Assembly (NCBI RefSeq): GCF_001553645.1
Contig: NZ_CP014231.1
Coordinates: forward strand, 124,001 to 188,000
DNA from: Leptotrichia sp. oral taxon 847
GTDB lineage: Bacteria; Fusobacteriota; Fusobacteriia; Fusobacteriales; Leptotrichiaceae
Length of the DNA: 64,000 nt
Direction: 5' to 3'
Shown here: one piece after another, positions 31,573 through 32,578 of the stretch
Position numbering within the stretch: position 1 is the stretch's first letter
Layout of the letters: every line of letters starts with the position of its first letter
Made by a program: the position numbers and the translations under genes
Notes under the pieces: generated by a model
What the model was told of the DNA's origin: nothing
The model's database searches: none
Seen by the model: the letters and a program-made list of their open reading frames with translations, nothing else

Positions 31573-31866
31573 TTACGCTTCCACTCTTTTAGGGTAAATA
31601 CTAACTCTTTTTTTACCTTTTCCAAATTTTTCAAATTTTACAAATCCATCAGCTACTGCAAATAAAGTGTAATCTTTTCCCAATTTTGCGTTAGTTCCTG
31701 CGTAAAATTTAGTTCCTCTTTGTCTTACGATAATATTTCCAGATTTTACAGCTTCTCCATCATATTTTTTAATTCCTAAATATTTAGGATTTGAATCTCT
31801 ACCATTTCTAGTTGAACCTTGTCCTTTTTTTGAGGCAAATAACTGTAAGTTTAATTTTAATATCAT
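31573..31866 (-). CDS. rpmA: 50S ribosomal protein L27 with cleavable N-terminal extension
   Basis: This 97-residue protein of the large subunit reaches the peptidyl-transferase centre with its N-terminus. The sequence begins [10 protein letters not shown] and continues [15 protein letters not shown]. The first ten residues match the extension that the Prp protease removes in Firmicutes and Fusobacteria before the conserved A-S-K-K-G. The rest is ordinary L27. tgacctcc on the plus strand gives a strong ggaggt ribosome site. prp lies just upstream, but appears frameshifted here. Confidence 0.95.
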
Positions 31867-31895: not shown

Positions 31896-32224
31896 TCATT
31901 CAAATTTTACAAACTCTTTGTATTCGTGTACAACATCCTTTAAATAAGAATACATAGATTCTGTTAAAATGTCTACTTTTTTTAACTCTTCTTCTGTCAA
32001 ATCAGAATTCTGTAAATCACAAGTTAACTTTCCAGCATTGTCTATTTCATATTTCACTTTTCCGTTTAATTTTAAAATCTCTAAAATTCCATTCAAAGTC
32101 ATCTGTGAAACTGACGAAACTGCAGCACAGACTATATCTTCACCACGTTTTGCATAATCTGCATGTTCATTAATTTGAAAATATACAATTCTCTTTTTTT
32201 TCTTTTTATTTTTATTTTTATCAT
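31896..32224 (-). pseudogene. prp: Ribosomal-processing cysteine protease Prp, apparent -1 frameshift in an A8 run
   Basis: Prp cuts the N-terminal extension from pre-L27. The main frame reads RIVYFQINEHADYAKRGEDI followed by VCAAVSSVSQMTLNG. It carries the catalytic His (EHADYA) and Cys (VCAAVS), but has no start codon before the rplU stop. The natural start ATG at 32224 (MIKIKIKRKK) is in another frame. The two frames join at AGAAAAAAAAGAG (32193-32201 region), where one extra A would give a normal 109-residue Prp. The total is 329 nt, one short of a multiple of three. Possible explanations are transcriptional slippage on A8, a sequencing error, or a real loss. Position between rplU and rpmA is conserved. 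Confidence 0.8.
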
Positions 32225-32244
32225 TTTTCTTCTTAAAAAAATTA

Positions 32245-32547
32245 TTATATTGATTTTATTTCAATAGTTGTATATTGTTGTCTATGACCTTTTTTTCTGT
32301 AATAAGTTTTTTTGTTGTATTTAAAGTTGACTTTTTTCACACCTTTTCCGTGCTCTTTAACTACTGCTACAACTTTTGCACCTTCTACAAAAGGTGTTCC
32401 AACTGTTACATTGTCCCCTTCTCCTACCATAAGAACTTCTTTAATTTCAATTTCTGAATTAACTTCAGCTGCTAATTTTTCTACTTTTAATACAGTTCCA
32501 ACTTCTACTTTGTACTGTTTTCCACCTGTTTTAATTACCGCAAACAT
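32245..32547 (-). CDS. rplU: 50S ribosomal protein L21
   Basis: This 100-residue protein binds 23S rRNA. The start [17 protein letters not shown] and the C-terminal '[18 protein letters not shown]' are diagnostic. The ATG at 32547 has a perfect ggaggtga site at 6 bp; a TTG directly before it is not needed. It heads the rplU-prp-rpmA operon with a strong promoter and a structured leader, which suggests autoregulation. Confidence 0.96.
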
Positions 32548-32578
32548 CAAAGTTCACCTCCACATTGTTTTTATTTTT

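Follow-up and report, generated by a model that had tools for sequence, protein, structure and literature searches.

The prp gene of Leptotrichia sp. oral taxon 847, which encodes the cysteine protease Prp (YsxB), is recorded with its start ATG and its catalytic frame one base out of phase, and a run of eight As (A8) forms the junction between them. The A8 run itself is nothing unusual; what chance does not account for is that the frame is interrupted here although all relatives tested have the gene intact. The break does not look like a built-in control device; it looks more like an isolated slip, possibly a slip of sequencing. The explanation favoured here, with slightly better than even confidence, is an isolated shortening of a fragile A-run by one base. 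Under this explanation prp would be a living, selected gene, and the recorded A8 would be either an assembly undercall or a change that arose recently in the sequenced culture and is unstable. In most cells, and in the species at large, the working chromosome would be in frame, with Prp made normally and trimming L27. Five points are read directly from the data: the frame is broken, the break is unique to this genome, the remainder of the gene is intact, so is the L27 extension, and A-runs of nine or more are avoided. Together they suggest an in-frame prp as the true or majority form.

The window, a 64,000-nucleotide stretch of contig NZ_CP014231.1, lies within a genome assembled as a single contig of 2,194,935 bases (2.19 Mb). 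It carries the minus-strand gene order rplU (L21), prp, rpmA (L27), whose features are listed in Table 1. A scan of the locus for promoters and terminators gave nothing useful on the prp frame break.

Table 1. Features of the rplU-prp-rpmA locus, in window positions
Feature	Position	Strand	Remark
rplU, ribosomal protein L21 (PF00829)	32245..32550	-	upstream neighbour of prp
AAGAAG, likely prp ribosome-binding site	32229..32234	-	found by eye
prp ATG (32224-32222), first seven codons and two bases up to the run, frame 0	32202..32224	-	MIKIKIK R
A8 run (T8 on the plus strand)	32194..32201	-	junction of ATG frame and catalytic frame; register A_AAA_AAA_G
Prp catalytic frame 3' of the run, Pfam PF04327	31896..32193	-	RIVYF...H-A-D...GEDIVCAA...KFE stop
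30-codon frame actually opened by the prp ATG	32132..32224	-	no Pfam match
rpmA, ribosomal protein L27 (PF01016)	31573..31866	-	N-terminal extension (10 residues) ahead of ASKK

Translation from the prp ATG ends after 30 codons. The catalytic frame, traced back to a TAA, spans 119 open codons and has no ATG, GTG or TTG 5' of the catalytic motif. The run occupies nucleotides 24-31 of the gene. From the ATG to the GGT-GAA-GAT codons there are 80 nt, against 27 codons (81 nt) in 58 of 59 relatives, which bears out the original prediction that start and catalytic frame are joined only with one more A. Searched across the whole genome, the PF04327 profile gives a single match, beginning at profile position 7; the recorded frame covers positions 7-90 with 77.3-78 bits (cut-off 27). 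The read-through protein, with the run joined, covers positions 1-90 with 88.6 bits, compared with 91.6 for the intact protein of the comparison genome G005. This search also finds no second copy of prp in the single-contig genome, as had been predicted. The catalytic His and Cys, whose roles are described in PMC9405229, are present in the Prp frame within the motif H-A...G-x-D-[IV]-[VI]-C: HADYAKRGEDIVCAA. The locus thus has the profile match, the catalytic motif and the adjoining long L27 expected of a Prp gene, and lacks a single continuous frame from a start codon. It resembles the known Prp/YsxB family (PF04327, MEROPS C108; S. aureus structures 4PEO and 7KLD) in its L21-prp-L27 order, its profile match, its H...C motif and its long L27; the copy of Leptotrichia sp. 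oral taxon 847 alone has a start that is out of frame. The N-terminal extension of L27 is retained, as the original prediction had stated, and relatives carry a like extension beginning M[IL].

The start region was read in 60 genomes, the own genome and 59 relatives, with one genome per species. An in-frame ATG is present in all 59 relatives, lying 27 codons before G-x-D-[IV]-[VI]-C in 58 and 29 codons before it in one, and is lacking in the own genome. Long A-runs are tolerated in this region: within the 120 bases before the motif, the longest run is at least seven in 23 of the 59 and at least eight in seven, with the frame unbroken. A wider scan of 98 genomes of the phylum found a PF04327 match in 92. 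Of the 92 best matches, 91 begin at profile position 1 and only that of the own genome begins at position 7; a partial second match with stops, at a contig end of genome G016, was left out of this count. Five of the six genomes without a match are 62-82% complete and one is 95% complete. Comparison of the tract in relatives, proposed as a check on the original prediction, therefore found the frame break in none of the 59, and neither set of genomes gave any sign of a conserved or recurrent break in prp. Among the matches listed in a literature search, none was a published account of a prp frameshift.

Despite the break, both parts of the gene carry the marks of a protein under selection. Over the 98 codons that begin at RIVYF and run to the end of the gene, comparison with G005 gives a dN of 0.078, a dS of 1.014 and a ratio of 0.077, close to the median of 0.084 for 235 orthologs, 103 of which lie below prp. 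Measured against three outgroups, the own copy has evolved no faster than that of G005 (dN 0.279-0.286 vs 0.318-0.328), and the amino-acid changes in Prp comprise two on the own branch, two on the branch of G005 and G007, and seven that could not be polarised. The first ten codons, read in the ATG frame against G005, hold three synonymous and no non-synonymous differences; a shifted frame would carry two amino-acid changes. With no relaxed constraint on either side of the run, these substitution patterns show the two halves of prp to have been kept as one protein. Either the break is recent or unreal, or expression joins the two frames. As a separate observation, the dS of prp to G005 (31896-32193, about 1.0) is roughly twice the ortholog median of 0.51, making the locus a relatively diverged one.

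These patterns bear on whether Prp could simply begin within its own frame at a non-ATG codon, for example the ATT of RIVYF. The 119 open codons of that frame would allow it, and ATT does serve as a rare start codon, but such a start would lose the first residues of the family (profile positions 1-6), and the conserved, synonymously changing codons of the ATG frame argue that the ATG is still the start. Internal initiation appears highly improbable.

A true loss of prp, with L27 left untrimmed or trimmed by another protease, is suggested by the sequence as written, in which the frame is broken and the copy is single. Against this, constraint is not relaxed and L27 keeps its cleavage site, although a very recent loss is conceivable. 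Prp and L27 are moreover reported to be essential in S. aureus (PMC9405229), so a stable prp null is unlikely, and as the sampled cells were alive, Prp was, by this analogy, presumably made in them. A dead prp is judged quite improbable and ranks third, behind an in-frame chromosome and, second, a fixed A8 rescued by slippage.

The weight given to slippage depends on how A-runs behave in this genome. A8 runs are ordinary in its genes: the 339 orthologs (of 349) that match G005 in one frame contain 170 A8 and 22 A9 runs in frame, and 25 of these genes have an A8 or longer run in their first 60 nt. When synonymous codons were shuffled within 235 genes (a 464-kb sample, 100 shuffles), A8 runs proved not to be avoided (124 seen vs 110.5 +/- 7.6 expected). 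Longer runs were strongly depleted, with A9 seen 14 times vs 37.4 +/- 4.2 expected, and A10 to A12 not at all vs about 19 expected; together, runs of nine or more were seen 14 times vs 56.0 expected. The cost of A-runs thus sets in at nine, a cost for which the census cannot separate replication from transcription slippage. As a usable rule for this genome, genes tolerate runs of eight As, whereas runs of nine or longer have been purged. There is no sign in the census of the cost that would be expected of an efficiently slipping A8.

The original prediction held that transcriptional slippage on a genuine A8 was the simplest answer. In that reading A8 is the true chromosomal state, and a minor fraction of transcripts gains an A through slippage of RNA polymerase. 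These transcripts would supply Prp in sufficient quantity, as only catalytic amounts of the enzyme are needed, and Prp level would depend on the slippage. Exactly one added A restores both the family spacing and the full PF04327 match, and the sequence is constrained both before and after the run, in the two respective frames. There is precedent as well: tolerated homopolymer frameshifts are documented in Blochmannia and Buchnera (PMC3017870, PMC5009743), an A11 run in Citrobacter tssM is reported to give 20-25% slippage (PMC4256274), and insertions are said to prevail in the A-runs of E. coli and Buchnera (PMC5574713). Run length weighs against it, however. E. coli RNA polymerase is described as showing no detectable slippage on runs of fewer than eight As (PMC6260861), which places A8 no higher than the threshold for slippage. 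Eight As are 'non-slippery' and nine slippage-prone in the terms of Baranov et al. (PMC1088944), who note that the threshold differs between organisms; according to the authors of GeneTack, slippage may occur in dnaX genes with runs of A8 or A7 (PMC3711429). Further points against slippage are that A8 is not avoided in the 235 genes, that the state is absent from all 59 relatives, and that the account of Buchnera in PMC5574713 reports no frame-restoring transcript error.

The premises of the slippage proposal therefore stand, namely a real break, a retained L27 extension and a single prp; the mechanism itself comes out weaker than the prediction had it. With the break in no relative, slippage is not a conserved device, and it is not the simplest reading because an unstable or undercalled run fits the same data without any rescue. 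Slippage on a fixed A8 is regarded as unlikely but worth keeping in view. A little less probable still is the fuller picture of a strain fixed at A8 and living on Prp from a minority of slipping transcripts or ribosomes, in which mature L27, and hence ribosome supply, would be throttled by decoding errors. If A8 were real and fixed, the locus would be a natural test of the minimal need for Prp, and of whether slippage can rescue an essential gene in a bacterium that is not an endosymbiont.

Comparison with known systems helps to place the locus. Like the 'pseudo pseudogenes' of Baranov et al. (2005, PMC1088944), it has an A-run at the frame junction and homologs with one open frame. In the cases described there, however, mutation lengthens a non-slippery A8 to A9, whereas here the broken form is A8. 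The run thus falls short of the slippage-prone length of nine or more given in that source, and for this reason the locus is not filed as a slippage-rescued gene, although it may still work like one. Essential genes of Blochmannia and Buchnera (PMC3017870) offer a second parallel, with a single poly-A indel in an otherwise intact gene of essential type in an AT-rich genome. Set against those endosymbiont cases as described, the present genome is of 2.19 Mb, is not that of a reduced endosymbiont and has mismatch repair genes; the break occurs in no relative and is known from DNA alone.

Ribosomes might instead make Prp by a -1 shift on A_AAA_AAA. The heptamer stands in register, since frame-0 AGA AAA AAA AGA becomes, after a -1 step, AAG AGA ATT GTA, and in this slippery heptamer the locus is like programmed -1 frameshifting at A_AAA_AAN in dnaX and IS elements. 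It differs from those systems in that no stimulator was found, the site is not conserved and the shift falls at codon 10. The X_XXY_YYZ heptamer is in place, but the downstream structure and the conservation in homologs that mark programmed sites are lacking: the 106 nt downstream hold no unusual RNA structure (z -0.30; 73 of 200 shuffles were as stable or more so), and the arrangement occurs in 0 of 59 relatives. The search for a Shine-Dalgarno stimulator upstream was made by eye. Unstimulated heptamers in E. coli are reported to reach only 2.1 to 10 times a background of about 0.055% (PMC4066793). Ribosomal frameshifting is considered very unlikely.

The favoured contraction of a fragile run draws on the same census. 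Because runs of nine or more As are purged from genes here, a prp run needing nine As would be a fragile state. Several base differences surround the run between the own sequence and those of G005 and G007, and one route between them may have passed through an A9 run. The quality of the assembly speaks partly against this explanation. A general homopolymer error was not seen, with 192 A8 and A9 runs in frame in the 339 orthologs, although isolated errors may exist; A/T runs of 13-17 in the sample from the own genome indicate that runs are not generally cut short. In an assembly this clean at its runs, a lone undercall in prp would be a coincidence. Loss of mismatch repair was rejected as a cause because MutS and MutL are present and open, which also argues against general run instability. 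If the run was undercalled or is unstable, the locus serves as a warning that even a complete genome of high quality may list an essential gene as disrupted by a single base within a homopolymer.

The frequency of comparable lesions was gauged by frameshift screens of the own genome and G005 against each other, which returned many artefacts from wrong starts and divergent adhesins and whose remainder was judged by eye. Splitting of HSPs flagged 4 of 335 ORF queries in the own genome and 3 of 334 in G005; it missed prp, the first part of which is too short. An alignment screen gave 14 events among 242 orthologs in the own genome and 16 among 240 in G005. In a larger sample it gave 17 among 349 and 21 among 348, respectively, most of which were judged on inspection to be wrong starts or divergent adhesins. 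In these screens, judged by eye, prp is the only own-genome lesion seen at a run of eight or more. In either genome, isolated run lesions affect roughly one gene in a hundred at most, and the prp break may be one of them.

Some further lesions were observed in the two genomes. A DUF676 esterase-like gene is open in the own genome with an A9 run (L184:13509-14303) and broken in G005 with A8 (approximately 2047131-2047960), an event like that seen in prp. Opposite a 2161-residue protein of G005 without a Pfam match (L171:5451-11936), the own genome (approximately 290766-297244) is one base out of frame near codon 201, where there is no homopolymer. Outside the window, at contig positions of about 266620-267929, a gene for a chorismate-binding enzyme of the anthranilate/PABA synthase type has lost one base in an A-rich linker when compared with G005, where the gene is open; the stricter frameshift screens missed this lesion.
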